From Megasphaera hutchinsoni (GTDB lineage Bacteria; Bacillota; Negativicutes; Veillonellales; Megasphaeraceae), in contig NZ_KQ960933.1 in NCBI RefSeq assembly GCF_001553405.1, positions 1 through 64,000 on the forward strand: DNA of 64,000 bases, written 5' to 3'. Positions 2,676-18,977 of the stretch are shown piece after piece (position 1 is the stretch's first letter; every line of letters starts with the position of its first letter). The notes beneath the pieces were generated by a model. It was not told where the DNA came from. It did no database searches and saw nothing but the letters and a program-made list of their open reading frames with translations. Made by a program: the position numbers and the translations under genes.

Positions 2676-3863
2676 ATGGGCTTACGTTGGGTTATGCATG
2701 TAGATATGGATGCTTTTTATGCATCGATTGAGCAACGAGATCATATTCAGTATAGAGGAAAACCAGTTATTGTAGGTGGTCTTTTTGACCGAGGTGTAGT
2801 GGCAACGGCATCATATGAAGCACGTGCATTTGGCGTGTATTCGGCAATGAGTATGAAATTAGCTAAACGATATTGTCCTGAGGGAATATTTATAGCACCT
2901 AGAATTGATTATTATAAGCTTATATCAGAACAGATATATCAAATTTTTCAGCAATATTCACCGCAAGTAGAGCGATTGTCTTTAGATGAGGCTTTTTTAG
3001 ACATATCGGGTATGGAACGAAAGTATTCTCAATATACAGATATGGGAAGAGAAATTAAGCAAGATATTTTGAATCATATAGGATTAGTAGCATCGGTAGG
3101 TATTGGGCCGAATAAATTTATTGCTAAAATTGCTTCAGATATAGAAAAGCCGAATGGATTGGTTTTTGTTCCTTATGGACAGGAACAAAAATTTTTATAT
3201 CCTTTATCAGTAAAACGGATTTGGGGCGTGGGAAAGATTACCGCTCAAAAATTAGAAAAATTAGGGCTTAGCCACATTGGCGATGTAGCAAATGCGTCTG
3301 TTGCAATATTGCGACAAGCGGTAGGAGAGCAGGCCAAGCATTTGAAAGCATTAGCACAAGGAGTGGATACACGACCTATTATTTCCCAACGAGAGCTTAA
3401 ATCAATTAGTTATGAACATACTTATACAAAGGATTTAGTTACACGAGAAGAAGTATATCAAAAATTACGCATATTGGCGTATGAAGTGGCAGGTAGACTT
3501 CGTAAGCAAGGGGTAATGGGCAGAACGATAACATTAAAGATTAGAAACCATTTGTTTTATACGTTTACTCGTTCATTGACGAGTAAACAAGATGGCTTTT
3601 ATGATGAAATAGAATTATATAATATAAGTTTGCAGTTATATAATAAGAGTAATATTCCGGGTTCCATACGATTATTAGGGTTAGGCATAAGCCATTTGTG
3701 TGTTTATCAACGACAAGCGGTGCTTTTTTCAGATAAGACAGAAAAATTAGAAAATCAAGAAAAATTAAATTATACATTGGATAGATTACACGAACGGTTT
3801 GGCAATAAAGTGATAATAAAAGGTTTTTTATTGGATAAGGATATTAATAATAAGAAAGATTAA
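2676..3863 (+). CDS. dinB: DNA polymerase IV (Y-family translesion polymerase)
   Basis: This Y-family polymerase copies damaged DNA and is error-prone. The 395-residue length is slightly above the usual 350. The catalytic acidic residues are visible: Asp10/Asp12 in HVDMDAFYASIE, and Asp104/Glu105 in LSLDEAFLDIS. Phe14-Tyr15 is the expected steric-gate position. A helix-hairpin-helix thumb (VKRIWGVGKITAQKLEKLG) and a little-finger domain follow. A strong AAGGAGG lies 5 bases before the ATG. No clear LexA box was seen upstream. The C-terminus lacks an evident QLxLF beta-clamp peptide, though a degenerate one cannot be excluded. Confidence 0.95.
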   Translation: MGLRWVMHVDMDAFYASIEQRDHIQYRGKPVIVGGLFDRGVVATASYEARAFGVYSAMSMKLAKRYCPEGIFIAPRIDYYKLISEQIYQIFQQYSPQVERLSLDEAFLDISGMERKYSQYTDMGREIKQDILNHIGLVASVGIGPNKFIAKIASDIEKPNGLVFVPYGQEQKFLYPLSVKRIWGVGKITAQKLEKLGLSHIGDVANASVAILRQAVGEQAKHLKALAQGVDTRPIISQRELKSISYEHTYTKDLVTREEVYQKLRILAYEVAGRLRKQGVMGRTITLKIRNHLFYTFTRSLTSKQDGFYDEIELYNISLQLYNKSNIPGSIRLLGLGISHLCVYQRQAVLFSDKTEKLENQEKLNYTLDRLHERFGNKVIIKGFLLDKDINNKKD

Positions 3864-5340: not shown

Positions 5341-6183
5341 TTAAATACCTACTTTGGCTAAAATATATTCCGCTGTTTCTTTTAGATAATTGGCTTTATA
5401 TAATTCAATATCGCCTTGATCACAGAGCTGTGCTAGCGTTGGATCTATAGGCAATTTTGCTACATGAGCAATGCCATGTTGGTCGGCATATAATTGGGTT
5501 TGCCCTTTGCCAAATATTTCATGGCGTGAATGACAATCGGGACATTCAAAGTAGCTCATATTTTCGATTAATCCGAGAACCGGAATTTTTAGCATGGTAG
5601 ACATTTTTAATGCTTTTTCTACAATGAGGGAAACTAATTCTTGTGGTGAGGTAATGACTAAAATGCCATCAATGGGTAAAGATTGGAAAACCGTTAAAGG
5701 GACATCTCCCGTTCCAGGGGGCATATCTACAAACATATAGTCTATATCACCCCAAGATACATCTGTCCAAAATTGTTTGACGGCACCAGAAATAACTGGA
5801 CCACGCCAGACAACGGGGACGGCCGGATCTTCTAATAGCACGTTCATAGACATGATTTTTATGCCCGTTTTACTGAGAACGGGAAAAATGTTCTTGTCAT
5901 CACCTTTTGCATGTTCGGTGATTCCAAATGCTTTAGGAATAGATGGACCGGTAATATCAGCATCTAAAATAGCTGTTTTTAGATGTTGTCGTTGCATTTG
6001 GATGGACATGAGCGAGGTAACTAGTGATTTACCTACGCCACCTTTCCCGCTTACAACGGCAATGATGTGCTTTACTTTACTGTTTGGATTGGGTGGAAGG
6101 GTAGTTGGTTTTTGTGGGGTACTATGACAACCTCCAACTGATGGACAAGCTGAACAAGCTTCTTTATTACAATTTTCACTCAT
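5341..6183 (-). CDS. mrp: Mrp/ApbC/NBP35-type P-loop Fe-S cluster carrier
   Basis: This cytosolic ATPase of the Mrp/ApbC family binds and transfers [4Fe-4S] clusters. The deviant Walker A GKGGVGKS is at about residues 46-53. A Mrp signature (VDMPPGTGD) and a CxxC motif (FECPDCHS) follow. The N-terminus has an extra Cys cluster (CNKEACSACPSVGGC), as in the NBP35/MinD-like group. The ATG at 6192 overlaps the ribosome site, so the ATG at 6183 is preferred (280 residues). It lies 18 bases after the DUF134 gene and is probably co-transcribed. With the NifU-like gene at 13.4 kb, it could mature the [4Fe-4S] dehydratase encoded nearby; that is inference. Confidence 0.9.
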   Translation of the reverse strand: MSENCNKEACSACPSVGGCHSTPQKPTTLPPNPNSKVKHIIAVVSGKGGVGKSLVTSLMSIQMQRQHLKTAILDADITGPSIPKAFGITEHAKGDDKNIFPVLSKTGIKIMSMNVLLEDPAVPVVWRGPVISGAVKQFWTDVSWGDIDYMFVDMPPGTGDVPLTVFQSLPIDGILVITSPQELVSLIVEKALKMSTMLKIPVLGLIENMSYFECPDCHSRHEIFGKGQTQLYADQHGIAHVAKLPIDPTLAQLCDQGDIELYKANYLKETAEYILAKVGI

Positions 6184-6201
6184 AAGAGACATCTCCTTTA
6201 A

Positions 6202-6543
6202 TTATCTTTTTTTTATTGCACAATATGGATACGTGCAGGTTTGTGCATTTGCACATAGCTTGATTGTTCCTCCTGCAATGCGTAGTTTTTGATTTTCTAC
6301 GAGGGTACGTGCTAATTTGTATCTCGCTTTTTTATATATTGCGGTGACAGTAGTACGAGACACCTGAATTTGATGGGCACATTCTTCATGTGTTAGTCCT
6401 TCTAGATCAATGAGGCGAATTACTTCATATTCATCAATTCCGAGGGTAATGTATCCAGGGTTTTCTGTTGTACTTTTTAAAGGAAAAAATTCTTTTGCTT
6501 TGGGTAAGGAACAGATTCTTCTACCATGTTGGGGGCGTGACAT
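6202..6543 (-). CDS. DUF134-family DNA-binding protein
   Basis: The 113-residue product starts at the ATG at 6543, behind AAGGAGGAA. A longer reading of the frame has no ribosome site. DUF134 proteins carry a sigma-70 region-4-like helix-turn-helix, seen here as LTHEECAHQIQVSRTTVTAIYKKAR at about residues 55-80. The N-terminal MSRPQHGRRIC is characteristic. Family members commonly sit beside Mrp-type ATPases, as here. The C-terminus has four Cys (CANAQTCTYPYC) that could bind a metal or Fe-S cluster, suggesting a sensor. The target is unknown. An inverted repeat just upstream (6584-6609) is a candidate self-operator. Confidence 0.85.
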   Translation of the reverse strand: MSRPQHGRRICSLPKAKEFFPLKSTTENPGYITLGIDEYEVIRLIDLEGLTHEECAHQIQVSRTTVTAIYKKARYKLARTLVENQKLRIAGGTIKLCANAQTCTYPYCAIKKR

Positions 6544-6583: not shown

Positions 6584-6609
6584 ATATTATTGTCATATGT
6601 CAATAATAT
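6584..6609. promoter_or_regulatory. Inverted repeat upstream of the DUF134 gene
   Basis: Nine-base arms ATATTATTG and CAATAATAT flank an 8-base centre. It lies in the 49-bp gap between the sigma-54 activator and the DUF134 gene, and overlaps the activator stop codon. It may be an operator. Confidence 0.45.
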
Positions 6610-8056
6610 GGGAAGATAACATCTCTTGACATCGTTTTCGGCGGCGGACAAATTTTGAAGGGGTAATATGTAATAATTTAGCGGCATCTCGCACCGTTCG
6701 GCCTTGCTCGTAGGCTTGTTGTAAATACATATACTCAATAGAAGTTAATACTTCAGCAAGATTGAGTGGAAGTTTTTGTGGTGTTACTGCTTGTGTTGCG
6801 ATATGTTTGCTTGATGGGACGAGTTTATCCGATAAGTCTTTAGTAGATGGAGGACGTAAAATATGTAAATCCTCTGGTTCGATTTTATTTTCAGGACTAA
6901 TAATTATAGCTCGTTCTACTATATTTTTTAATTCGCGGATATTTCCAGGCCAATTATACTCTTGTAAGACTTGACAGGAATAAGAAGAAAATGATTTATG
7001 AAAAGAATATTTTTGATTTAATTTAGCTAAGAATGATTCAGCCAAGGGGATGATATCTTTTTGACGTAAACGAAGTGGGGGAAGGGCAATGGGAAATACA
7101 CTTAAACGATAGTACAAGTCTTCACGGAACAACTTTTGTTGAACCATTTCTTTAAGATTGCGATTGGTGGCAGCGATGATGCGTGTATCGATTTTTATAG
7201 GTTTTGTGCCACCGATGCGCATAATTTCCTGTTCTTGCAATGCTCGTAATAATTTTACTTGCATGTCTTTTGGCAATTCGCCTACTTCATCAAGGAAAAG
7301 AGTGCCTTTATTAGCTAATTCAAATAAGCCCATTTTTCCATTGCGGTTAGCACCTGTAAAAGCGCCGCTTTCATAACCAAATAATTCACTTTCTATTAAG
7401 TTTTCTGGAATAGCCCCACAATTTACTTTAATAAAACTGTCATGACAGCGGTGACTATGCTGATAAATATAGTGAGCCAACACTTCTTTTCCTACACCCG
7501 TTTCACCTAATAATAAAACGGTTGTATCTAAAGGGGCAACACGATTAGCCAGTAATACAGATTGTAAGGCTGATTCATCTTTTATAATTAGCTCATCTTT
7601 AATAAGCGTTTCTTGTAAATGCGTTAATTCTAAACGAAGTCGCTCTACTGTTGCATTTTTTCGTTCTACCGCTTCTTTTAAGTTGTAAATTTCACTTAGA
7701 TCGCGAACATTTGTTACGACCATAATAAGATTACCTTGGGTGTCAAAAATAGGGGAACTTGTCACTAAGGCTTCTTTGCCCGTTTTAAATTTCTGCTGTA
7801 AGGTAACGGGTTTTTTTTTGTGAATAACTAGAAGTGATGCCGACTCAGAGATTATTTTTTGTGTTACGAGATCTTTCATGTTTTTACCGATGACATCTTC
7901 TTTTTTTAAGCCGGTAATAGATTCATAGGCGGTATTTATTCGTAAGACATAGGCATCTTTGTCAGTAATAAATATACCATCAAAGGAGTGTTCAATAATG
8001 GCATTTAGATGGGTGTTAGCATCTTCGATAGTTGAGAAAAATTCTTGTTTAATCAT
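6593..8056 (-). CDS. Sigma-54-dependent activator (PAS-AAA+-Fis HTH)
   Basis: This is a 487-residue bacterial enhancer-binding protein. Domains in order are an N-terminal PAS sensor (about 12-120), a short coiled linker (about 122-160), an AAA+ module (about 165-400) and a Fis-type helix-turn-helix (about 455-475, RTVRDAAKLLHITPSKF). Walker A GETGVGKE is at 184-191. The sigma-54-contact loop GAFTGA is intact at 231-236. It is of the RocR/PrdR/TyrR-like class, sensing a ligand through PAS rather than by phosphorylation. Two strong -24/-12 promoters lie 5-6 kb away, beyond the lux-like operon, and are its likely targets. The 84-bp gap after the acyl-AMP ligase leaves open whether it is co-transcribed with that operon. 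Confidence 0.92.
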   Translation of the reverse strand: MIKQEFFSTIEDANTHLNAIIEHSFDGIFITDKDAYVLRINTAYESITGLKKEDVIGKNMKDLVTQKIISESASLLVIHKKKPVTLQQKFKTGKEALVTSSPIFDTQGNLIMVVTNVRDLSEIYNLKEAVERKNATVERLRLELTHLQETLIKDELIIKDESALQSVLLANRVAPLDTTVLLLGETGVGKEVLAHYIYQHSHRCHDSFIKVNCGAIPENLIESELFGYESGAFTGANRNGKMGLFELANKGTLFLDEVGELPKDMQVKLLRALQEQEIMRIGGTKPIKIDTRIIAATNRNLKEMVQQKLFREDLYYRLSVFPIALPPLRLRQKDIIPLAESFLAKLNQKYSFHKSFSSYSCQVLQEYNWPGNIRELKNIVERAIIISPENKIEPEDLHILRPPSTKDLSDKLVPSSKHIATQAVTPQKLPLNLAEVLTSIEYMYLQQAYEQGRTVRDAAKLLHITPSKFVRRRKRCQEMLSSHIIDI

Positions 8057-8140: not shown

Positions 8141-9544
8141 TTATTGTAATGATGTGGGTAATTGAGTATATTGCACTTTTCCTGAAGAGTTAAGAGGAAT
8201 TTTGGTGATGACATTAATTTTGTACTGTTGAGCATGTAAGCCAAAAGTTTCACTCAGGGTAGTATGAAGTGTGGGAATAGAATCTATTGTTGTAACAAAA
8301 ATTTGCAGATAATCATCTGTTCCAGTACATGCTATATGGGGAGAGTTTATTTTGGTTTTTAGAATTTGTTCGGCTTCATCTAAATTAAATCTTTTTCCCG
8401 CTAATTTTATAAAGCGTTTTTTTCTGCCAACAATATAAAAATATCCATCTTCATCTTTATAGGCGATATCTCCTGTAAATAACTTTCCTTTAAATTCATC
8501 TTCCTTTTTTAAATCATCACGAGTTTGGGCATAGCCGAGGGTTACATTTTTTCCTTCATAATATAATTCGCCTGAAATATGATCTTCCGTAATTTCCGTA
8601 TGATTATTTTCCATGATTTTAAAGGTTCCACCAGGGATGGCTATGCCGATGCTGCCTAGTTTTTTTAAACATTGATCAGAGGGCAAGTAAGACATCCGTG
8701 CAGTTGCTTCAGTTTGACCATACATCACGATAAATTGTTTGCCTGACGATTGGGCAAAGGTGCCAAATTTTTCTTGTAGTGGTTTGCCAAGGCGACCACC
8801 AGCTTGAATTAATAAGGTTAAATGGGGGAGACTCATTTTTGTAAAGCCGATTTTATCTAGACAGGCGTACGTAAATGGGACCCCAGCTAAAGAGGTTATT
8901 TTTTCATGTTGACAAATGTGCCAAAATTCTTTTTCAAATAAGGTGTGCTGAGTTAAGCGAATTGCGGCACCGCAATATACATGACTATGGATAACGGATA
9001 AACCAAAGGTATAATGCATGGGTAGGGTTGATATCGGGTATTGGTTAGACGTTAAGTTTAAATAGGTGGCAATAGAAGTAGCATTTGCGTGTAAATTTGT
9101 ATAACTTTGGCGAACTAATTTGGGACTTCCCGTGCTACCGGAGGTGGTTAATAATAAGGCTAGTTCTTTATATAGTTTACAGGCGGGAGCTGGATTTTTA
9201 TAAACGCCGTAATCGGCAATAGTATATAAGGGGGGGATTGTGGTGGATTGGCGTGGTTGGAAAATGTATTCGGGTTGATACTGGCATAGTATATGTTGTT
9301 GCAATTCTGGTGCAAGTGTTGAATCTATCATAATAGGAACGATACGGTTTTGTAAGCAAGATAAATAAGATAATAAAGAACCAGCCGTATTATTACAGAA
9401 AATGGCAACTAAAGTGCGTGAGGGAATATATGTTGCAAGGCATGCCGCATGCGTATACCAATCATTATAGGAATATAAATGATTGGTATCATCTGTACAG
9501 AGTGGACGGGTAGAGAGAGGGGTAAATGTATCAAAAAAGTACAT
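8141..9544 (-). CDS. AMP-dependent acyl ligase (ANL superfamily)
   Basis: The 467-residue adenylating enzyme has the ANL P-loop TTSGSTGSPK at about 133-142. It also has the ribose-binding GDIAYKDEDGYFYIVGR region and a C-terminal catalytic Lys in NSSGKVQYTQL (Lys456). It is shorter than CoA ligases of about 550 residues and resembles free-standing acyl-AMP ligases that load carrier proteins. Given the acyl carrier protein in the same operon, loading that protein is the best guess, but a CoA ester product is possible. It is the last gene of the seven-gene minus operon, 12 bases after the luxC-like gene, with AGGAGG before the ATG. The substrate is unknown. Confidence 0.85.
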   Translation of the reverse strand: MYFFDTFTPLSTRPLCTDDTNHLYSYNDWYTHAACLATYIPSRTLVAIFCNNTAGSLLSYLSCLQNRIVPIMIDSTLAPELQQHILCQYQPEYIFQPRQSTTIPPLYTIADYGVYKNPAPACKLYKELALLLTTSGSTGSPKLVRQSYTNLHANATSIATYLNLTSNQYPISTLPMHYTFGLSVIHSHVYCGAAIRLTQHTLFEKEFWHICQHEKITSLAGVPFTYACLDKIGFTKMSLPHLTLLIQAGGRLGKPLQEKFGTFAQSSGKQFIVMYGQTEATARMSYLPSDQCLKKLGSIGIAIPGGTFKIMENNHTEITEDHISGELYYEGKNVTLGYAQTRDDLKKEDEFKGKLFTGDIAYKDEDGYFYIVGRKKRFIKLAGKRFNLDEAEQILKTKINSPHIACTGTDDYLQIFVTTIDSIPTLHTTLSETFGLHAQQYKINVITKIPLNSSGKVQYTQLPTSLQ

Positions 9545-9556
9545 AATGAAAACCTC

Positions 9557-10738
9557 CTAATGAATGTAACGAGATAATGTGTCAATAATATGTATGCCAT
9601 CCCAAATAATATCCATCGTTAAGGCTTGACCAAAGGGAACAATGCGATCTATACCAGCGAGTTGTTGTTCGATTACTTGTCGACGTAATGATATGATATC
9701 TTTGGCGAAAGTTGTAACGGTTTGTATTTTTTTGTTTACATGAGGCCAAAATTCATGGATATCCTCATATTCTATTTCAAAAAAAAGACCACTAATACCA
9801 CGCAAGGTACTTATGTCTTGAGGTAACGTGGATAAGGTATAGACATATAAGAAATTAGTATAGGTGGAAATACTGCCGGGAATATTCAAGGATAGTGCAT
9901 ATTTCCATAATTGATTATATTTTAATGTTACTTTATCGCTGGTTAATTTATAAGAAGAACTTTTTTGAGCGAGCAAAGACCACCATATTTTTTTTGCTTG
10001 ATGACAATCTTGGGGAGTACCAACCCAAATGATAATTTGAGGGGAGGCACAACCATTCTGATCAACGTGATAGGTATCCATATAGAAATGGTGTATTGCC
10101 GTTTCTTGAGATTCGTGTGATAGTTGTAGTAATGTTTGGGCATAGATAATGGCAATAGAAGAGCGATCCCTAAATACGAGTTCTATAGCATGGGGAGGTA
10201 AGGGAATTTGTCGTATATTGGTTAATGTTGTATCACTTCCCCAGAGGATGCGACAGTCACAAAGACGAGAAAAGTATGCCGTTAGAGTTGGGTCTTTATC
10301 GTATAAAATAAAGGCATTTTGTTGTTTTAAAGCGGCGTATTGTGGTTGTTGCAATACTGTTTGCAGGATGGCGATGACTTGTTGGGCATGGTTGTATATA
10401 CGAGGAGAAATACGGATGATATTGCCATTACCACTTAATAAGGATAAGAGAAAGCTATAGGCGAAAACTGTGGGTATATTACTAGGTGGAATATGGAATG
10501 ATAAGCCGCGTCCCAAGCGATAGTGAGGTTGTTGTAAGTTGGTCTGCCATTTTTTTATTTGTTGAGGGCGTAACCAAAAAGCTAGGCTTTTCCAATCAGG
10601 TGATAAAGAAGGATTTTTTAATAATTGGGTTCTGAAGTCAGCAATAAAGGATTGGACGATGGGAGAAAATGGTACAGCAGGAATCGTTTTTTGCGGGATG
10701 TGACCAGCTAATAGTTTATAGGCGTTATCGATAGACAT
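9557..10738 (-). CDS. LuxC-like acyl-CoA/acyl-protein reductase (aldehyde-forming)
   Basis: The protein has 393 residues and the LuxC acyl reductase signature. An N-terminal GRGLSFHIPPSNIP lies at about 76-89, where NADPH binds. The expected nucleophilic Cys is Cys230, in DQNGCASPQ. LuxC takes an acyl group from LuxE and reduces it to an aldehyde. Its start overlaps the end of the luxE-like gene by about 14 bases, implying coupled translation. AAGGGGG precedes the ATG at 10738; a GTG three bases earlier is less likely. No luxAB luciferase is present, so the aldehyde must serve another purpose. The family call is firm; the substrate is not. Confidence 0.85.
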   Translation of the reverse strand: MSIDNAYKLLAGHIPQKTIPAVPFSPIVQSFIADFRTQLLKNPSLSPDWKSLAFWLRPQQIKKWQTNLQQPHYRLGRGLSFHIPPSNIPTVFAYSFLLSLLSGNGNIIRISPRIYNHAQQVIAILQTVLQQPQYAALKQQNAFILYDKDPTLTAYFSRLCDCRILWGSDTTLTNIRQIPLPPHAIELVFRDRSSIAIIYAQTLLQLSHESQETAIHHFYMDTYHVDQNGCASPQIIIWVGTPQDCHQAKKIWWSLLAQKSSSYKLTSDKVTLKYNQLWKYALSLNIPGSISTYTNFLYVYTLSTLPQDISTLRGISGLFFEIEYEDIHEFWPHVNKKIQTVTTFAKDIISLRRQVIEQQLAGIDRIVPFGQALTMDIIWDGIHIIDTLSRYIH

Positions 10739-11792
10739 CACTACACCCCCTTAGTTCGGTATGTGGAATGCGTCCTAGGACATTAAAATATTTACCTTTT
10801 CGGCCACAGGGACAATCATCTATGCCTAGAAGAATTCCTCTATCTTCGGTAAGGATACTATGCCCAGGGTAGGCCGTTGCTAAGGGGGTTAGTACTTGGA
10901 TTATACCTGTTTCGTTTGTTTTGCAGGGCACAAAGGTTTGAGGATGGCGTATAATGATATCGGAGAATATTGAGGCATGAAGGTGACCATATTCGCACTC
11001 TATATAAATACAGCCTGTTTGTTCAGCCATGCCATAATAATTATAAATATGGCGTAGTTGGGTTTGATTTTGTAAATTTGTTTTAAATGTATTAGGAGAA
11101 ACGGCAATGTGGGACATTTTTTTCCAACCTCCTCCATGGATCAGGATAGCATTAGATAAATCTAACGTATACTGACATTGGTGTAAAGCTTCATAAAAAT
11201 AACGCCATATCATAAAAGTAAAACCAAAAATAAAGAATGGTTGCGTAGCATATTGTTTTATTTCATTTAATACATCCATATTTAAGGATAAATCTGGATG
11301 GAGGGCAAAATATTTTTTTTTGGCGAATAGAGAAAAACCTAAAATGGCAGCACTACGAGCATTAAAGCTTTTTCTGTTTGTTAGTACTTCTGGGGTATCT
11401 ATAATAAGCGTGGGTAAGCGTTTGCTCCCTAGTATTTGTTGACCTAAAACGCATAGCGCTTGTTGTTGTGTTTGGGCATTTTTTTGATCCAAATAGATAT
11501 GAGATACCGCTTGTCCTGATGTTCCAGACGAAGTAATTATTTTAAAAATATCTTTTTCAGGAATACTTTTTAGCGTCATATTTTTAAAAATAGATATAGG
11601 AATAAAGGGTATTTCTGATAAGGTTGTAGCTTTTTTATAATTAAATATTTGGAGTGCGTGGTTATAAGGGGGGCACTGGTGACGATGATAGTCTGTTAAT
11701 TCATTTAAATAAGGAAGATAAAGGCTTTCTTTTTCTTGTTGGGAAATGCGATATGGGGAAAAAGAAAGCCAATTTTCATAGTCCGTAAGCAT
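10725..11792 (-). CDS. LuxE-like acyl-protein synthetase
   Basis: LuxE enzymes activate a carboxylic acid as acyl-AMP, hold it on a Cys and pass it to LuxC. This 355-residue protein has the adenylation loop ITSSGTSGQ near residues 86-94. It has a YNYYGMAEQTG motif in the middle and the typical C-terminal DCPCGRKGKYFNVLGR with two Cys at about 327 and 329. The start at 11792 has GGAGGA 8 bases upstream. The frame extends further upstream within the hydrolase gene but without a ribosome site. It overlaps the preceding hydrolase gene by 17 bases. Together with the LuxC homologue it forms a fatty-acid-reductase-like pair. Confidence 0.85.
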   Translation of the reverse strand: MLTDYENWLSFSPYRISQQEKESLYLPYLNELTDYHRHQCPPYNHALQIFNYKKATTLSEIPFIPISIFKNMTLKSIPEKDIFKIITSSGTSGQAVSHIYLDQKNAQTQQQALCVLGQQILGSKRLPTLIIDTPEVLTNRKSFNARSAAILGFSLFAKKKYFALHPDLSLNMDVLNEIKQYATQPFFIFGFTFMIWRYFYEALHQCQYTLDLSNAILIHGGGWKKMSHIAVSPNTFKTNLQNQTQLRHIYNYYGMAEQTGCIYIECEYGHLHASIFSDIIIRHPQTFVPCKTNETGIIQVLTPLATAYPGHSILTEDRGILLGIDDCPCGRKGKYFNVLGRIPHTELRGCSDVYR

Positions 11793-12447
11793 GTTTTTGT
11801 TCCTCCGTAAGAATAAAGTGGGAACCATGACCAGGATAGGTGAGTAAAGAGAGTGGTAAGGACTGCAAGCGAGGTTTGCCCTTTTTTTCATATGCCAGGG
11901 GATCGCCACCAGGTAGACGAGTAATTACTTGTTCGCCTGGAATCAAATAATCACCAGAAAATAAAATGGAATGATCAAAGATAAAACAAGTGCTACCTAA
12001 GGTATGTCCTGGTACTTGGAGGCAGGCACAGTGATAAGAATTCCATGTAAAGGCATGCGTATTGACAAAGGTAATATCCGCAGGGGCACAGGTGAATTCG
12101 GGATAAGGGGTGGTACATAATTGATGGGTACGAAAATATAAATACGTTTCCATAATGTGACTCATATTCCGTTTGCTATTTTGAATACCGTTACTACAAT
12201 CAGTACTGGCTAATACAGGGCAATGATATATTTCGCGGAGACGATTTAAGCCAGAAATATGATCACAGTGTTCATGGGTTAGGAGAATTAACTCAGGATA
12301 TAAATGATTTGCGGTAAGATGAGATATAATCGCATCGGGAAGATTAGGATCAATAATAAGGGCGTGTTGTTCCATAGAAATGATATAACAATTGCTAGTC
12401 GTTAGCGGATCGGTTATACAGGCGATGTGATTTGCTAAGATGTTCAT
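11776..12447 (-). CDS. Metallo-beta-lactamase-fold hydrolase
   Basis: This 223-residue enzyme of the glyoxalase II-like branch has the metal motif THEHCDH at 57-63. His148 (PGHTLGS), Asp165/166 (SGDYL) and His207 (PGHGSH) complete a di-metal centre. The second-site Asp62 and His63 suggest two zinc or iron ions. Related enzymes hydrolyse thioesters. In this operon, a thioesterase releasing an acyl group from the carrier protein, the part LuxD plays in bioluminescence, is an attractive inference. It follows the acyl carrier protein gene with no gap. No signal peptide is visible, so it is cytosolic. Confidence 0.85.
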   Translation of the reverse strand: MNILANHIACITDPLTTSNCYIISMEQHALIIDPNLPDAIISHLTANHLYPELILLTHEHCDHISGLNRLREIYHCPVLASTDCSNGIQNSKRNMSHIMETYLYFRTHQLCTTPYPEFTCAPADITFVNTHAFTWNSYHCACLQVPGHTLGSTCFIFDHSILFSGDYLIPGEQVITRLPGGDPLAYEKKGKPRLQSLPLSLLTYPGHGSHFILTEEQKHAYGL

Positions 12448-12684
12448 TTATATGTCTACACCGTATTTGCGTAAAATGTCTAATCCTTTTTCAAAGGAAC
12501 TAAAGGCTAATACATCGGGTGTGTCAATTGAAATATCAAATGCTTCTTCTATATCCTCCATTAATGTCATATGACCTAACGAATCCCATGTTTTGATGCT
12601 GCGGTATTTTAAACCAGGTAATTCATTTTCTGTTACTTTTAAAATAGTCATAAAAATTTTTTTATATGTTTCTAAATTTGTCAT
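12448..12684 (-). CDS. Acyl carrier protein
   Basis: The 78-residue protein carries the phosphopantetheine attachment motif WDSLGHM, with Ser35 as the modified residue. Acidic helices II and III (LMEDIEEAFDI) follow. It differs from a housekeeping AcpP, which has DSLD or DSLDTVE. The Gly-His after Ser-Leu is typical of carrier proteins in secondary pathways and D-alanyl or LuxE-associated clusters. It overlaps the upstream gene by 4 bases (ATGA). No ketosynthase or ACP synthase is nearby, so it probably carries a pre-formed acid loaded by the operon's AMP ligase. Confidence 0.9.
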   Translation of the reverse strand: MTNLETYKKIFMTILKVTENELPGLKYRSIKTWDSLGHMTLMEDIEEAFDISIDTPDVLAFSSFEKGLDILRKYGVDI

Positions 12685-13379
12685 AATAAAACCTCGCTTT
12701 TATAAATAAATATGTTTTTAGGAAAGTGACAACGAATATGTCCACGTAATAGAGGCACATCCGTATTGGTATATCCCGTGCAAGATAACAATCCGCTGTA
12801 TTGGCGTTCCTTTTCTAGTAGGGACTGTAATTGCAAGGTTATTTTGATGGTTTGCGGAACTTTCATAGATAAGTAAAAAGATAAAGTCTGTTTTACTGTT
12901 TGTAATTCTGGATGGGGATATAATGACTGCAATGTTTGTGTTATGAGCATGATAAAGATTGCTTTTGGTATCATGGGATTTTCTCTCATGATGGGGGTAG
13001 TTTTTCCAATAAGTGTATTGTTAAAAGCGTGATAATCTTGTAGTTGTTTCCATGTAAGTGGGTAAGATTGTGTATACGTTTGATGTAAGAAAATAGGAAT
13101 GCTTGTGGGAGGAAGTTTTTTTTCTAGAGAGTCTATAGACAAATCAAGGGTATTTAATTGGTGTGGAGAAGTAATGAATTTAACTTGTTTTGTTAATAAC
13201 GCAGTTACTTCTGGACATGCGGTAGGACAGCCGCAAATGACCAAACATATATCGCAATATTGCGTTTCCGGATCATAGATATAGGTATAGTGCGGATGAT
13301 TTTTTATAAAGTTATTTACTGCTTGTGTGCGGTTGTAACGGCAATTACAGCCTCCACAATATTTTATTCCCACATTCAT
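12681..13379 (-). CDS. Cys-rich CGGC protein with possible C-terminal hotdog domain
   Basis: The 232-residue protein has two parts. Residues 1 to about 75 hold KYCGGCNCRYNR near the N-terminus and ICGCPTACP further on. These could bind a metal or Fe-S cluster. The remaining part contains a segment around 130-225 (SLYPHPELQ...LSFYLSMKVP...RGHIRCHF) whose strand pattern suggests a MaoC/FabZ-type hotdog fold. I cannot point to a catalytic His/Asp pair, so dehydratase activity is unproven. It overlaps both neighbours by 4 bases and is clearly part of the operon. I do not recognise a named family, and the domain reading is tentative. Confidence 0.6.
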   Translation of the reverse strand: MNVGIKYCGGCNCRYNRTQAVNNFIKNHPHYTYIYDPETQYCDICLVICGCPTACPEVTALLTKQVKFITSPHQLNTLDLSIDSLEKKLPPTSIPIFLHQTYTQSYPLTWKQLQDYHAFNNTLIGKTTPIMRENPMIPKAIFIMLITQTLQSLYPHPELQTVKQTLSFYLSMKVPQTIKITLQLQSLLEKERQYSGLLSCTGYTNTDVPLLRGHIRCHFPKNIFIYKSEVLL

Positions 13380-13675
13380 GAGTGTTTCGCACCTTTAGAT
13401 TTTTGTAACATTTGTTTGGCTGTTTCGATTAACGAAGCACTTACGCCAAAGGCTAATTGTACACGTTTGATTTCTGGAAAATGCTCTTGCACGGTTTGTG
13501 TGATTAATTCCTCTGTAGTTATTAACGCGGAAGGACAGCCGCTGCATTGTCCTGTAAGACGAATATGTAGATGGTTGTTTTCATATGAAATAATTTCTAC
13601 ATTTCCTCCATGTGATTGGAGGGATGGTCTAATTTTTTCGTTAAATAAAGATTCCAATTGTGTTAATGTAGGCAT
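13376..13675 (-). CDS. NifU C-terminal-domain Fe-S scaffold protein
   Basis: The 99-residue protein matches the NifU C-terminal/Nfu domain. Its N-terminus is LFNEKIRPSLQSHGGNVEI, and the CSGCP cluster-binding motif has Cys44 and Cys47. Nfu proteins assemble or carry [4Fe-4S] clusters. It is the first gene of the minus operon, with AAAGGAGG before the ATG, and lies about 35 bases from a minus-strand -24/-12 promoter. Its presence suggests that an operon or divergon product needs an Fe-S cluster. The divergent 4-hydroxybutyryl-CoA dehydratase is an obvious client, though this is inference. The C-terminal 30 residues after the Nfu core are extra. Confidence 0.88.
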   Translation of the reverse strand: MPTLTQLESLFNEKIRPSLQSHGGNVEIISYENNHLHIRLTGQCSGCPSALITTEELITQTVQEHFPEIKRVQLAFGVSASLIETAKQMLQKSKGAKHS

Positions 13676-13709
13676 CAGAAAACCTCCTTTTAGTATTTAA
13701 TAAAATATA

Positions 13710-13726
13710 TGCAAGATTTGTGCCAA
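13710..13726 (-). promoter_or_regulatory. Sigma-54 (-24/-12) promoter of the lux-like operon
   Basis: Read on the minus strand the sequence is TTGGCAC-AAATC-TTGCA. The GG and GC dinucleotides have the exact spacing expected. It lies 35 bases upstream of the nifU-like start codon. Confidence 0.85.
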
Positions 13727-13825
13727 ATAACAGATGAGGTAAAAAACAGTAGTACAAAGAGAGATACATCAGCCTAATAGAAAATAAGTTTCATTACCGT
13801 TTCAATTGTGAAAAAAATATCTTGA

Positions 13826-13871
13826 TTGTTTTAAAAATGCAACAAGATAAATCGAATTTTGTTTTAAAAAT
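13826..13871 (+). repeat. Two 13-bp direct repeats, 33 bp apart
   Basis: TTGTTTTAAAAAT occurs at 13826-13838 and 13859-13871. The 33-bp offset is about three helical turns, placing both copies on one DNA face between the two sigma-54 promoters. This suggests regulator or bending-protein sites. Confidence 0.45.
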
Positions 13872-13886
13872 AGAATTATATACATG

Positions 13887-13933
13887 AAAAAGTCATATAT
13901 ATATATATATAGGAATTATATATATGACTTTTT
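13887..13933. promoter_or_regulatory. Inverted repeat, candidate enhancer between divergent sigma-54 promoters
   Basis: Perfect 16-bp arms (AAAAAGTCATATATAT and its complement) flank 15 bases. It lies about 50 bp upstream of the plus promoter and 160 bp upstream of the minus promoter. These are usual positions for an enhancer-binding-protein site. Confidence 0.6.
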
Positions 13934-13983
13934 AACATGAATAACGTGAAAAAAATGCATGAAAAAGAAAAGAAATAAGCGAG

Positions 13984-14000
13984 TTGGCACAATTTTTGCA
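13984..14000 (+). promoter_or_regulatory. Sigma-54 (-24/-12) promoter of the 4-hydroxybutyryl-CoA dehydratase operon
   Basis: The sequence TTGGCAC-AATTT-TTGCA matches the sigma-54 consensus. The start codon of the dehydratase is 66 bases downstream. Confidence 0.88.
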
Positions 14001-14066
14001 TATACATTAGTGACGCACTAATAGAGTGCTATATAAGCCGTTATATTTATAGAGAGGATGATTAAT

Positions 14067-15518
14067 ATGGCATTAATGACAGGTGAACAGTATGTAGAAA
14101 GTATGAGAAAATTGAACATGCAGGTGTATATGTTTGGAAAGAAAATCGAATGTCCCGTAGATGATCCGATTTTACGTCCATCATTAAATTCTGTGAAAAT
14201 GACTTATGATTTGGCCCAGTTACCAGAATATCAAGATTTGATGACCGCTGTTTCTCCTTATACGGGAAAACGTGTGAATCGATTCACGCATATTCATCAA
14301 AGCACACAGGATTTGATGAATAAAGTGAAAATGCAACGGTTATTGGGACAAAAAACCGCAGCATGTTTTCAACGTTGTGTAGGGATGGATGCATTTAATG
14401 CTGTATTTTCCACTACGTATGACATTGATAAGAAATATGGTACTACCTATCATGAAAATTTTAAAAAGTTTTTATTAAATGTACAAGAGCTTGATTATAC
14501 TGTAGATGGTGCTATGACAGATCCGAAAGGTGATCGTGGGTTGGCACCGCATGCACAAGCGGATCCAGATTTATTTTTACATGTTGTCGAAAGACGTCCC
14601 GATGGCATTGTGGTTCGTGGAGCAAAAGCACATCAAACTGGTTTTATTAATTCGCACGAAGTTATTGTTATGCCGACAATGGCTATGGGTGAAGATGATA
14701 AAGATTATGCAGTTGCTTTTTCATGTCCAACTGATGCTGAAGGTATCTTCATGATTGTTGGTCGGCAATCTTGCGATACTCGTAAATTAGAAGGGGCTGA
14801 AATGGATACAGGCAACCCTACTTTTGGTGGTATGGAAGCATTGGTTATTTTTGATGATGTATTTATTCCGAATGATCGAATTTATTTAAATGGTGAATTT
14901 GAATTTGCTGGTGTCTTGGTAGAACGCTTTGCTGGATATCATCGTCAATCTTATGGTGGTTGTAAAGTTGGTGTAGGTGATGTCTTGATTGGTGCTGCGG
15001 CAGTAGCAGCTGATTATAACGGATGCCCGAAAGTATCGCACATAAAGGATAAAATTATTGAAATGCAGCATTTAAATGAAACCTTATTTGCTTGTGGCAT
15101 TGCGTGCTCTGCTTTAGGTACAAAGACGGAATCAGGAAATTATTTGATTGATTTATTGTTAGCGAATGTATGCAAACAGAATGTTACTCGGTTCCCCTAT
15201 GAAATAGTTCGGTTAGCGGAAGATATTGCAGGTGGATTAATGGTAACAGCACCATCTGAAAAAGATTTGCGTGATCCCAAGATTGGACCGTATGTTGATA
15301 AATATTTACGTGGGGTTGCTTCTGTATCTACGGAAAACCGGTTGAAAATTTTACGTTTAATTGAAAACTTGAGCTTGGGAACAGCGGCGGTTGGTTATCG
15401 TACAGAATCGATGCATGGAGCTGGTTCACCACAAGCACAACGGATTATGATTTCGCGACAAGGCAATTTACGTATGAAAAAGGCGTTAGCTAAAGAAATT
15501 GCACATATTAAAGAATGA
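14067..15518 (+). CDS. abfD: 4-hydroxybutyryl-CoA dehydratase / vinylacetyl-CoA delta-isomerase
   Basis: This [4Fe-4S]- and FAD-containing enzyme converts 4-hydroxybutyryl-CoA to crotonyl-CoA through a ketyl-radical mechanism. The 483-residue product keeps the cluster ligands at the positions known from Clostridium aminobutyricum: Cys100 and Cys104 (AACFQRCVGMDAF), His292 and Cys299 (YHRQSYGGCK). The flavin-binding TDPKGDRGL and AHQTG stretches are present. An ATG at 14058 abuts the ribosome site, so the ATG at 14067 behind GAGAGGA is chosen. The gene heads a sigma-54-controlled operon with the matching CoA-transferase. The pathway would feed 4-hydroxybutyrate, GABA or succinate carbon to crotonyl-CoA and butyrate. 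Confidence 0.96.
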   Translation: MALMTGEQYVESMRKLNMQVYMFGKKIECPVDDPILRPSLNSVKMTYDLAQLPEYQDLMTAVSPYTGKRVNRFTHIHQSTQDLMNKVKMQRLLGQKTAACFQRCVGMDAFNAVFSTTYDIDKKYGTTYHENFKKFLLNVQELDYTVDGAMTDPKGDRGLAPHAQADPDLFLHVVERRPDGIVVRGAKAHQTGFINSHEVIVMPTMAMGEDDKDYAVAFSCPTDAEGIFMIVGRQSCDTRKLEGAEMDTGNPTFGGMEALVIFDDVFIPNDRIYLNGEFEFAGVLVERFAGYHRQSYGGCKVGVGDVLIGAAAVAADYNGCPKVSHIKDKIIEMQHLNETLFACGIACSALGTKTESGNYLIDLLLANVCKQNVTRFPYEIVRLAEDIAGGLMVTAPSEKDLRDPKIGPYVDKYLRGVASVSTENRLKILRLIENLSLGTAAVGYRTESMHGAGSPQAQRIMISRQGNLRMKKALAKEIAHIKE

Positions 15519-15550: not shown

Positions 15551-15595
15551 AGTCTCAAGCATACTGATGACACAGTATGCTTGAGACTTATTTTT
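15551..15595 (+). terminator. Terminator-like hairpin between abfD and the CoA-transferase gene
   Basis: The perfect 16-bp stem AGTCTCAAGCATACTG / CAGTATGCTTGAGACT has a six-base loop and is followed by TATTTTT. It probably stops part of the transcription or stabilises the abfD mRNA end. No other promoter was found before the next gene. Confidence 0.75.
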
Positions 15596-15613
15596 AAAAA
15601 GGATGTGAGTAAT

Positions 15614-16912
15614 GTGCAGGATTGGAAAGAAAAATATGCAGGAAAAATAGTATCTCCTGCAGAAGCGGTAAGTCATGTTAAATCTGGAGATAAAATTGTT
15701 TTTTCTCACGCTTGTGGAGAATCTCAGGTGTTAACGGAGGCATTGGTTAAACAAGCTGACCGATTGAAAGACGTAGAAATTATTCATATGGTAGCGATGG
15801 GTGCGGCGAAATATTGCTTGCCTGAAATGGAAGGCCATTTTCGGCATAATGCGTTATTTGTAGGGGCGACTACACGGGAAGCGGTAGAATCGGGGCGAGC
15901 TGATTATACGCCTTGCTTTTTTCATGAAGCACCGCGGTTATTTACAGATGGTACGATTCCCGTTGATGTAGTTATGTTACAAGTAAGTGAACCGGATGAA
16001 AATGGCATTTGTTCTTTGGGGATTTCTGTTGATTATACGCAAGCTGCTGCAAGTGTAGCTACATTAAAAATCGCTCAAATTAATAAGAATATGCCTTATA
16101 CCTATGGCAATGGTATTCATTTAGATGACTTAGATTATTTGGTTATTAAAGATGAGCCGATTATTGAATTACCGCCACCTAAAATAGGGGAAATTGAACA
16201 GCGTATTGGTGAACATGTAGCTTCGCTTATTCAAGATGGAGATACACTTCAACTAGGGATTGGTGCGATTCCCGATGCGGTATTATCCTTCTTAGGCGAT
16301 AAAAAAGATTTAGGTATTCATTCGGAAATGTTTTCGGATGGGGTTGTTGATCTAGCGGAAAAAGGAGTTATTACGAATCGCAAAAAAAGTTTAGATCCAG
16401 GAAAATTCCTTTCTTGTTTTTTAATGGGTACGAAAAAGTTATATAACTTTATTGATCATAATCCTGATGTTATTATCAGACCCGTAGATTATACGAATGA
16501 TCCCTTTGTAATCTCTCAAATTGACAACATTATTTCGATTAATTCAGCGATGCAAGTAGACCTGATGGGGCAAGTAAATGCTGAAATGATTGGATTGCGT
16601 CAATTTAGTGGCGTAGGCGGACAAGTTGACTTTGTTCGGGGTGCAGCAAGAGCTAAAGGGGGCAAAGCGATTATTGCAATGCCATCGACAACGGGTAAAA
16701 CTAAAAAAATATCAAAAATAGTGCCCTTACTTGATCGTGGGGCTGCGGTTACTACTTCACGTAATGATGTGGACTATATTGTGACGGAATTTGGGATTGC
16801 TGCATTACATGGAAAAACGTTACGGCAAAGAGCAAAGGCATTAATTGCGATAGCTCATCCTGATTTTAGAGCATCGTTAGAAGAGGAATTTAACGCACGG
16901 TTTGGGTTGTAA
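15614..16912 (+). CDS. abfT: 4-hydroxybutyrate CoA-transferase
   Basis: This family-I CoA-transferase moves CoA from acetyl-CoA to 4-hydroxybutyrate. The 432-residue protein begins MQDWKEKYAGKIVS, matching the family start, if the GTG at 15614 is used. AAAAGGA lies 10 bases before it. An upstream TTG at 15581 falls inside a terminator stem and is unlikely. The catalytic glutamate is Glu238 (GIHSEMF), the same number as in the characterised clostridial enzyme. GIGAIPDAV and GGQVDFVRGA motifs complete the active site. It directly supplies substrate to the dehydratase encoded upstream. Confidence 0.93.
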   Translation: MQDWKEKYAGKIVSPAEAVSHVKSGDKIVFSHACGESQVLTEALVKQADRLKDVEIIHMVAMGAAKYCLPEMEGHFRHNALFVGATTREAVESGRADYTPCFFHEAPRLFTDGTIPVDVVMLQVSEPDENGICSLGISVDYTQAAASVATLKIAQINKNMPYTYGNGIHLDDLDYLVIKDEPIIELPPPKIGEIEQRIGEHVASLIQDGDTLQLGIGAIPDAVLSFLGDKKDLGIHSEMFSDGVVDLAEKGVITNRKKSLDPGKFLSCFLMGTKKLYNFIDHNPDVIIRPVDYTNDPFVISQIDNIISINSAMQVDLMGQVNAEMIGLRQFSGVGGQVDFVRGAARAKGGKAIIAMPSTTGKTKKISKIVPLLDRGAAVTTSRNDVDYIVTEFGIAALHGKTLRQRAKALIAIAHPDFRASLEEEFNARFGL

Positions 16913-16925
16913 AGGAGGAATAATT

Positions 16926-18359
16926 ATGTTTGGACCTATGTTTGCACGAAAAGCAGGGGAGATTCAACCAGGTATTAAGTTACCTATATTTAATTTAGTA
17001 TTTCGGTTACCATTTATACATTATCGGTTTGAATGGCCTGATTATGTTCAAGGACTATTGTTATGTGCGGTTTGTTTAGGGATTATTCCTGTATTACAAG
17101 AATATTTAGGGATGCCCTTTGAAATAGCTATTACGATTGTTATTATGAATGGTTTTTTGTATACATGGCACGCCCATTTGGGTGATCCTGTTGTACCTGG
17201 TTGGATCACACCGGCTATACCATTGTTACTATTGTGGCTGTCAGGTTTTTCACATGAAACGGCCGATCGGATGCATGCACTTATCGCCTTTGAATTTGAA
17301 TTAGGGATTTTGACTTTTTTCTTAGGTGCTACAGGTTTAGCAAAACGTGTGGTTGATTTAGTTCCAGATGCTTTAAAATCAGGCATTTTAATTGGAGCGG
17401 GTATTGCAGCGGTTCGCTTAGTATTCAATACGGGAGGAAGTTTTGATAAATATCCCTTGACTATTGCCGTAGCGGTAGGTTTTGCTTTTTACTGTTCCTT
17501 TAGCAATCATTTTAAAGGAATTATGAATAAAAATCGCATATTTCGTTTGATTTCTGATTTAGGGTTATTGCCAGCGATGGTATTAGCCGTTATTATTGCT
17601 CCTTTAGTGGGAGAATTGCCGTGGCCATCGATAGAATGGGGATTTACACATCCGCATTTTATAGAGGTATTCACGCAATGGAGCCCTTTTGCCGAACGCA
17701 TTGGTTTTCCATCTTTAGATTATTTTATTTCGGCCGCACCGTTGGTTATTGCTACTTATGTGGTGTTGTTTGGTGAACTCATTCAAGCGGATGCTTTAAT
17801 TGATGAAGCAAGAGAGTTTAGACATGGGGATGAAAATATTCATTTTGATGCCAATCGTAATAATGTTATTGTGGGTGCTAGAAATATGGTTATGGCTTTA
17901 GCTGGCCCAGATTTATCCATGTGTGGTCCTTTATGGGCAGCGATGCAAGTGGTTATTTGTGAACGGTATAAGCATGGACGTGAAGCTATGGATAGTTTAA
18001 TTGGTGGTGTTGCTTCTTTTAGATTAGGCACATTTACCGGTTATTGGCTATCGCCAATTGTTAGCTTTGTTAAACCTGTGTTGCCTATTGCCTTAGCATT
18101 GACGATGCTTATTCAAGGATATGTAGCGGTACGAGTTGGCGTGTTGCGTGCAAAAACGTTTAATGATCTAGGGGTAGCAGGTATTATTGGCGGTGTTTTA
18201 GTATCGCGAGGTGCAGCTATGGCCTTAGGCGTAGGTATTGTATTGTGTTTGATTATATATGGACGGCATTTTTTTGAACGAAAAATTCATTTGTATAACA
18301 CGAAAGGAGACCCGCTATTTAATATTGCAGCTCAACATGAGCAAGAGAAAGGCGTTTAG
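16926..18359 (+). CDS. Multi-pass membrane permease of the 4-hydroxybutyrate operon
   Basis: The 477-residue protein has about 11-12 hydrophobic segments. GDPVVPGWITPAIPL near residue 80 resembles the helix-break motif of the NCS2/benzoate/SulP-like permease fold. The start at 16926 follows AAAGGAGG; an upstream frame extension lacks a site. It lies 13 bases after the CoA-transferase gene. I do not recognise an exact family. By context it may import 4-hydroxybutyrate or a related carboxylate, but the fold class also includes purine and sulfate carriers. A charged loop (DEAREFRHGDENIHFD) sits in the middle, around residue 300. Confidence 0.7.
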   Translation: MFGPMFARKAGEIQPGIKLPIFNLVFRLPFIHYRFEWPDYVQGLLLCAVCLGIIPVLQEYLGMPFEIAITIVIMNGFLYTWHAHLGDPVVPGWITPAIPLLLLWLSGFSHETADRMHALIAFEFELGILTFFLGATGLAKRVVDLVPDALKSGILIGAGIAAVRLVFNTGGSFDKYPLTIAVAVGFAFYCSFSNHFKGIMNKNRIFRLISDLGLLPAMVLAVIIAPLVGELPWPSIEWGFTHPHFIEVFTQWSPFAERIGFPSLDYFISAAPLVIATYVVLFGELIQADALIDEAREFRHGDENIHFDANRNNVIVGARNMVMALAGPDLSMCGPLWAAMQVVICERYKHGREAMDSLIGGVASFRLGTFTGYWLSPIVSFVKPVLPIALALTMLIQGYVAVRVGVLRAKTFNDLGVAGIIGGVLVSRGAAMALGVGIVLCLIIYGRHFFERKIHLYNTKGDPLFNIAAQHEQEKGV

Positions 18360-18377: not shown

Positions 18378-18977
18378 ATGCAATATTATGGTGATTTATT
18401 AAGACGATTACAAAGGGAAAATCATACAGAAATTTGTCGATTTTTTGTTAAGACTTGTTTACAGCAAGTGAAACAGTATAGTCAGTCGGATAATGAAAAG
18501 CGGTTTTTTATGATGTGTGCTGTCTCGGCTAATGATAGCATTCATAAATTTTTAGCACAGCAAAAATGGAAAGCGACAGGATTTTGGCAGCATCGTTTGT
18601 ATTTTTCTTCCGTAAAAAAAGAAATTCCTTATGTAGTAAAAGCCTATTTATCTTGTCTTTTACTAGTGTTAGGAAAACAGAAATCGTTAATTCTACAAAA
18701 GACGGGATTGACAGAAACCTTATTTATTCAGAAATGGGAGTTGTTATTCCAATATGATGTGGATGATAAGCACCTATTTAATGAATTTTGTATGATTGTA
18801 CAAGAATTGAATGGACGAGATATATTATTTAGTCGTTTAAGCAATTTATTGTATGAAAAGCTGAAAGGAAAGCAGATGTTGGCACCTTTGTCTAGTCAAC
18901 AGAATAATACGTATATACAAGAATTTATAGGGGAAGATGCGTATATTATTACGTGTAGATTACAGGAAATGATATAA
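18378..18977 (+). CDS. Unknown protein, last gene of the 4-hydroxybutyrate operon
   Basis: The 199-residue protein has no recognised domain. It is basic in its N-terminal half, has one moderately hydrophobic stretch (VVKAYLSCLLLVLGK, about residues 94-108) and is otherwise predicted helical. It starts 18 bases after the permease gene behind GGTGAG, so it probably shares the sigma-54 transcript. A 46-bp perfect palindrome that serves as terminator lies just after it. The context suggests an accessory role in 4-hydroxybutyrate metabolism, but the sequence gives no direct clue. Confidence 0.6.
   Translation: MQYYGDLLRRLQRENHTEICRFFVKTCLQQVKQYSQSDNEKRFFMMCAVSANDSIHKFLAQQKWKATGFWQHRLYFSSVKKEIPYVVKAYLSCLLLVLGKQKSLILQKTGLTETLFIQKWELLFQYDVDDKHLFNEFCMIVQELNGRDILFSRLSNLLYEKLKGKQMLAPLSSQQNNTYIQEFIGEDAYIITCRLQEMI

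Follow-up and report, generated by a model that had tools for sequence, protein, structure and literature searches.

Divergent sigma-54 promoters and a probable shared enhancer between 4-hydroxybutyrate and lux-type genes in Megasphaera hutchinsoni

Promoters of the −24/−12 type require sigma-54 and an enhancer-binding protein (EBP), and sigma-54 is usually regarded as regulating broadly, through several activators. According to a 2025 survey, COG2368, the group to which 4-hydroxybutyryl-CoA dehydratase belongs, is under sigma-54 chiefly in Clostridia (PMC12316311); sigma-54 control of the AbfD enzyme class is thus not new in itself. In Desulfovibrio vulgaris, the divergent orp1 and orp2 operons have DVU2106 as their EBP (PMC3897727). 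The locus described below resembles the orp divergon (PMC3897727) in its pair of operons transcribed away from each other, each with a sigma-54 promoter, and in palindromic sites, putative in our case, for a cognate EBP whose gene is in the cluster. It also shares a Mrp/NBP35-type Fe-S protein, which belongs to the ORP system (PMC6345978).

The window, the whole stretch of DNA analysed, comprises positions 1–64,000 of contig NZ_KQ960933.1 of Megasphaera hutchinsoni (assembly GCF_001553405.1); all coordinates refer to it unless another locus is named. The window has a G+C content of 38% and the genome is 1,565,222 bases (1.57 Mb) in size. In our reading, the interval between the nifU and abfD genes would control transcription in both directions through sigma-54, with a common enhancer from which one EBP would drive both operons; we assign this reading a probability of roughly 0.83.

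Promoters and palindromes between the two operons

The promoter pair reported by the first-pass annotation is present as described, both members being exact matches to TTGGCAC-N5-TTGC. The promoter of the nifU-lux-EBP operon is TTGGCACAAATCTTGCA, at 13710–13726 on the minus strand, and that of the abfD operon is TTGGCACAATTTTTGCA, at 13984–14000 on the plus strand; the TGGCAC and TTGC boxes of sigma-54 promoters are thus found at their fixed spacing. A scan of the whole genome, covering perfect and one-mismatch −24/−12 sites, yielded six perfect TGGCAC-N5-TTGC sites, four of them within long open reading frames and only the two divergon promoters intergenic. From a coding background of 4 sites in about 3.1 million strand positions, we calculate that a gap of 391 bp would carry a perfect site on each strand with a probability of about 1e-7 to 1e-6. 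With one mismatch allowed, all 24 sites from the first scan and all 4 in the window are inside reading frames, defined as open reading frames of at least 70–80 codons and not as annotated genes; among further one-mismatch sites, read in stretches, four are outside such frames, two of which have any open reading frame within 250 bp downstream. A plus-strand open reading frame at 13260–13700 is antisense to nifU and was disregarded. Where the abfD mRNA is predicted to start, there is a short stem, GCACU/AGUGC (14015–14029, plus strand), which could protect the mRNA or serve as an operator; several relatives have a similarly placed 5-bp stem made of other bases.

Between the promoters is an array of 18-bp palindromes, TGTTnCAAAAATGnAACA, whose distances to the abfD −24 box are constant across genomes, at about 139, 172 and 200 bp. 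The strongest of these candidate upstream activating sequences in the window, TGTTTTAAAAATGCAACA, is located at 13827–13844, 139 bp from the −24 box, and is the genome's only exact match to the degenerate form YGTTNYAWWWWTRVAACR. A weak site of the same kind is found at 13798–13815, at a distance of 168 bp, where relatives have a slot at 165–174 bp. An extra half site, TGTTTTAAAAATAGAATT, at 13860–13877 and 106 bp from the box, is part of a 13-bp direct repeat and has no counterpart at that distance in the relatives compared. The 13-bp direct repeats noticed earlier, TTGTTTTAAAAAT, occupy 13826–13838 and 13859–13871 and are part of the conserved enhancer-like palindromes. The inverted repeat also noticed between the promoters exists, with perfect 17-bp arms at 13887–13903 and 13917–13933; the resulting hairpin (13887–13933) is specific to the window genome and, not being found in relatives, is ruled out as a conserved element. 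Another good palindrome, TGTTGCAATATTGCGACA, is located at 3299–3316 within a coding region, presumably by chance.

Relative to the abfD −24 box, the palindromes of the different genomes occupy three slots, with gaps of 137–141, 165–174 and 197–206 bp; relative to the lux-side promoter, their spacing varies between 81 and 304 bp. Most relatives have a palindrome in the 139-bp slot; two slots are occupied in each of the genomes G014 and G016 and one in G337, and in the window genome the slot at 139 bp is strong and that at 168 bp weak. All nine family intervals contain palindromes with 0–3 mismatches to the consensus, and the best matches in 150 pieces of 394 bp drawn at random from the window have at least 4, a contrast that is partly circular because the consensus was derived from the same intervals. 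The constant positions of the palindromes are the stronger argument. Upstream activating sequences are thus represented by conserved palindromes at fixed distance, as putative binding sites. The array is likely the enhancer of the EBP, anchored to the abfD promoter and common to the lux-side promoter, and it is co-occurrence and position that suggest the link between the palindromes and this EBP.

The activator, its sigma factor and their distribution

The gene at 6593–8056 (minus strand), earlier taken to encode a PAS-AAA+-Fis activator, does specify such a protein, with PAS and Sigma54_activat domains, GETGVGKE and GAFTGA motifs and a C-terminal DNA-binding region; the GAFTGA loop and the Walker motifs of a cognate EBP are both in place. 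Three proteins of the genome match the Sigma54_activat model, the window EBP with an E-value of 2e-70 and the other two far more weakly. In one of the weak matches, GAFTG occurs N-terminally and not in the ATPase site, and the other is ClpB-like; on our reading of their architecture, both were rejected as EBPs. The protein encoded at 6593–8056 is the only true EBP in the genome.

The rpoN gene that such promoters call for is present as a single copy on contig C29 (L174:7222–8517), with all three sigma-54 domains. As there is one rpoN and one EBP, the sigma-54 regulon of the window genome may be little more than the abfD/lux divergon. A complete second rpoN is located between the ligase and EBP genes in seven relatives (G001, G002, G006, G011, G013, G014 and G016), and G005 has pieces of rpoN ahead of the EBP gene. 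This operon copy is missing in the window genome, which, as far as our search shows, has the general copy alone. A tree of 24 RpoN proteins unites the copies from the operon in one clade (100/99), separate from the general copies; the window RpoN groups with the general copies, on a very long branch. This placement, together with an identity of 25%, excludes the gene on contig C29 as a relocated operon copy. Loss of the operon rpoN is the simplest reading, because congeners and the second genus have it, but G337 is also without it. The RpoN box of the window protein starts with SRR, like the operon copies and perhaps by chance, the general copies of relatives in the tree starting with ARR.

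The comparison set consisted of 380 genomes of the class, 17 of which, from two genera, are of the same family as M. hutchinsoni; relatives were compared at selected contig stretches. The layout nifU-CGGC-ACP-MBL-luxE-luxC-ligase-[rpoN]-EBP, divergent from abfD-CoA-transferase(-transporter-orf199), is present in eight family genomes and the window genome, the divergon of G005 being spread over separate contigs. As the first-pass reading required, relatives with both operons keep both promoters, which have 0–1 mismatch in all nine family members that carry the divergon; in some relatives, a promoter deviates at a single position. The whole divergon is also present in G337, a member of a different family of the class, with the promoters TGGCACACTTTTTGC, likewise within 0–1 mismatch, on the abfD side and TGGCATGGTTTTTGC on the lux side; its AbfD is 89% and its EBP 66–67% identical, and there is no space for rpoN between its ligase and EBP genes. 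An EBP orthologue is present in 11 of the 380 genomes and the divergon was seen in 10 of these; the remaining one, G012, has a contig end immediately beyond the EBP gene. LuxE was found in 42 of the 380 genomes (E ≤ 1e-15), including 10 of the 11 with the EBP, and the other 32 have no orthologue of the divergon EBP. Neither abfD nor the EBP gene was seen in the stretches read from 19 of these 32, in most of which ACP and/or ligase genes adjoin LuxE-LuxC. Four of the 19 were viewed further, and reading of their sequences revealed neighbours that are largely surface-glycan and carbohydrate genes. The loci L242, L250, L252 and L253, from other families of the class, have ACP, ligase, LuxE and LuxC amid glycan and carbohydrate genes.

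Genes of the two operons

On the lux side, where all genes are on the minus strand, the first gene encodes a Fe-S protein resembling the C-terminal part of NifU (13376–13675). It is followed by genes for a CGGC-motif protein (12681–13379), an acyl carrier protein (ACP; 12448–12684; weak Pfam match, with orthologues in relatives), a glyoxalase-II-like hydrolase of the metallo-beta-lactamase (MBL) fold (11776–12447), a LuxE-type acyl-protein synthetase (10725–11792), a LuxC-type acyl reductase (9557–10741) and an AMP-dependent acyl ligase (8141–9544). In relatives, the CGGC protein has a C-terminal MaoC-like hydratase domain, recognised by Pfam in one and by eye in others; the window copy has no Pfam match for it. 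LuxE and LuxC both belong to their families by sequence, with Pfam matches above cut-off; LuxE also matches the LuxE structure 7xc6, and LuxC, which has no PDB match, is assigned from Pfam alone. No luciferase (luxAB) is present among the operon proteins scanned with Pfam and, judged by its predicted products, the operon is lux-like in chemistry only and not a bioluminescence luxCDABE operon. A DUF134 protein (6202–6543, start inferred) and a Mrp/NBP35-type Fe-S carrier (5341–6192; nearest NCBIfam model MrpORP, below cut-off) are also encoded on the minus strand.

The plus-strand genes begin with abfD, for 4-hydroxybutyryl-CoA dehydratase (14067–15518; 1u8v, E-value 1e-236). Its product aligns with 1u8v from end to end and retains the 4Fe-4S ligands Cys99, Cys103, His292 and Cys299. 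The next gene, for a 4-hydroxybutyrate CoA-transferase (15581–16912; 3eh7, E-value 7e-163), has an uncertain start, and its product matches solved 4-hydroxybutyrate CoA-transferases; for both enzymes, the identification from sequence is convincing. They are followed by a membrane transporter related to PurT (7tak; 16926–18359) and by orf199 (18378–18977), the gene of a 199-residue protein conserved in the divergon, for which a single-sequence structure model was unusable (pLDDT 43).

NifU and CGGC genes adjoin abfD outside the lux context in G009, in G001 (contig C181) and in G004, which suggests that NifU and the CGGC protein serve AbfD; in G015 (contig C71) a piece of the CGGC gene is beside abfD. 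The abfD copies outside the divergon at L168, L170, L171 and L173 have CGGC and mostly NifU neighbours, some with MaoC, acyl-CoA dehydrogenase and Fe-ADH genes. Elsewhere in the window genome, a SucD-like and a Fe-ADH protein are encoded next to each other on contig C5 (L316:6479–9015). Their best PDB matches are the succinate-semialdehyde dehydrogenase 8cei and Cvir-Hbd2, neither has an NCBIfam match over cut-offs, and none of the perfect or one-mismatch −24/−12 sites listed in the genome-wide scan is within this locus. Succinyl-CoA can therefore probably be converted into 4-hydroxybutyrate by SucD/4HbD-like enzymes, without LuxC.

Proposed circuit, alternatives and known systems

In the circuit we propose, the EBP would bind the palindromes TGTTnCAAAAATGnAACA centred on 13827–13844 and, by DNA looping, drive sigma-54 polymerase from both promoters. 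A single signal, sensed by the PAS domain, would switch on both gene sets together: abfD, the CoA-transferase, the transporter and orf199 on one side, and what appears to be one operon, nifU-CGGC-ACP-MBL-luxE-luxC-ligase-EBP, on the other. As the EBP gene is within the operon it activates, in most relatives directly preceded by a second, dedicated rpoN, positive feedback is to be expected. NifU, the CGGC protein and Mrp probably provide Fe-S clusters for AbfD. The first-pass annotation had proposed that one signal turns on both operons and that they work together. Its first half is probable: joint switching by one activator is well supported by the genome having only this EBP and by EBP orthologues tracking the divergon across the 380 genomes. 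Its second half is less certain, given the SucD/4HbD-like genes elsewhere and the Lux cassettes without abfD in other families; biochemical cooperation between the 4-hydroxybutyrate genes and the Lux cassette is something we only infer.

Besides the single promoter mismatch of some relatives, three features of the window genome count against the circuit: it has one strong enhancer site left, it lacks the operon rpoN, and no MaoC half can be recognised in its CGGC protein. The circuit could therefore be decaying, the divergon no longer being activated after loss of its dedicated rpoN and the motifs persisting because that loss is recent. The shortness of the promoter interval, which is about 200 bp longer in most relatives, and the unusually long branch of the remaining RpoN agree with such a relic. 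We nevertheless consider it unlikely, as both promoters are perfect, better than those of several relatives, the EBP motifs are intact, all divergon genes have open frames, the single rpoN has been kept with only the divergon EBP to serve, and G337 carries the divergon without an operon rpoN. It is far less probable still that two independent regulatory systems are adjacent by coincidence. The Lux cassette and abfD are each found apart elsewhere, but the divergent layout, both promoters and the shared array are conserved in several genera, and the pattern scan found no −24/−12 boxes at the abfD loci outside the divergon.

Control from a shared enhancer could also be compatible with another reading, which concerns biochemical role: starting from succinate or a different C4 acid, reduction by the ligase, ACP, LuxE and LuxC would yield the semialdehyde and so lead to 4-hydroxybutyrate for AbfD. 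LuxE and LuxC make aldehydes from acids, a chemistry established for Lux; the family's form of the cassette is strictly linked to abfD, and MaoC and AbfD both act on C4 CoA esters. Against this role are the adjacent SucD-like and 4-hydroxybutyrate dehydrogenase-like genes on contig C5, on account of which we downgraded it, and the related cassettes without abfD in other families, amid glycan genes where these were read. Related cassettes in flagellin islands (PMC7874193, PMC4875605) also argue against it, and we regard it as improbable.

The window genome seemingly retains sigma-54 for one activator and two promoters, and in relatives a sigma-54 paralogue is located within the operon it probably serves, making this a natural case for why sigma factors are kept and duplicated. 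Tentatively, and with more doubt than confidence, we suggest that most relatives have a private second sigma-54 and EBP in their own activated operon, that the reduced genome has lost the private copy, and that its general sigma-54 now serves only the divergon, which would encode an uncharacterised C4-acyl path to an ACP-LuxE-LuxC reductase. The locus also brings together 4-hydroxybutyryl-CoA dehydratase and a Lux-type cassette for acyl reduction. In a limited literature search, we found no earlier report of the link between abfD and a Lux cassette, no paper with both "sigma-54" and "4-hydroxybutyryl-CoA dehydratase" as spelled here, and no description of these features together with a sigma-54 paralogue encoded in the operon and a regulon that may be limited to one divergon. 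Among the reported markers of bacterial vaginosis is gamma-hydroxybutyrate, which the paper concerned attributes to Gardnerella (PMC4585667).

By analogy, the divergon would work like the orp system of D. vulgaris without being a member of it. The targets there are orp genes (PMC3897727), in contrast to the abfD and lux-type genes of our locus; the EBP gene is there under its own sigma-70 promoter and IHF sites are needed. The parts of that study drawn on here (PMC3897727) describe no sigma-54 gene in the orp cluster, whereas most relatives have a dedicated rpoN in the abfD/lux divergon. With flagellin glycosylation islands (PMC7874193, PMC4875605), the lux-side operon shares the set of ACP, AMP-dependent synthetase or ligase, LuxE and LuxC; unlike the islands, the divergon contains the MBL hydrolase, NifU, the CGGC-MaoC protein and abfD, under predicted sigma-54 control, and no glycan genes. 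AbfD has all four cluster ligands in common with the enzyme of Clostridium aminobutyricum (1u8v). The route of C. kluyveri from succinate via 4-hydroxybutyrate to crotonyl-CoA is likewise represented, by AbfD, the CoA-transferase and the SucD/4HbD-like enzymes elsewhere in the genome, but here it is split over two loci, with the abfD part under predicted sigma-54 control beside a Lux cassette.
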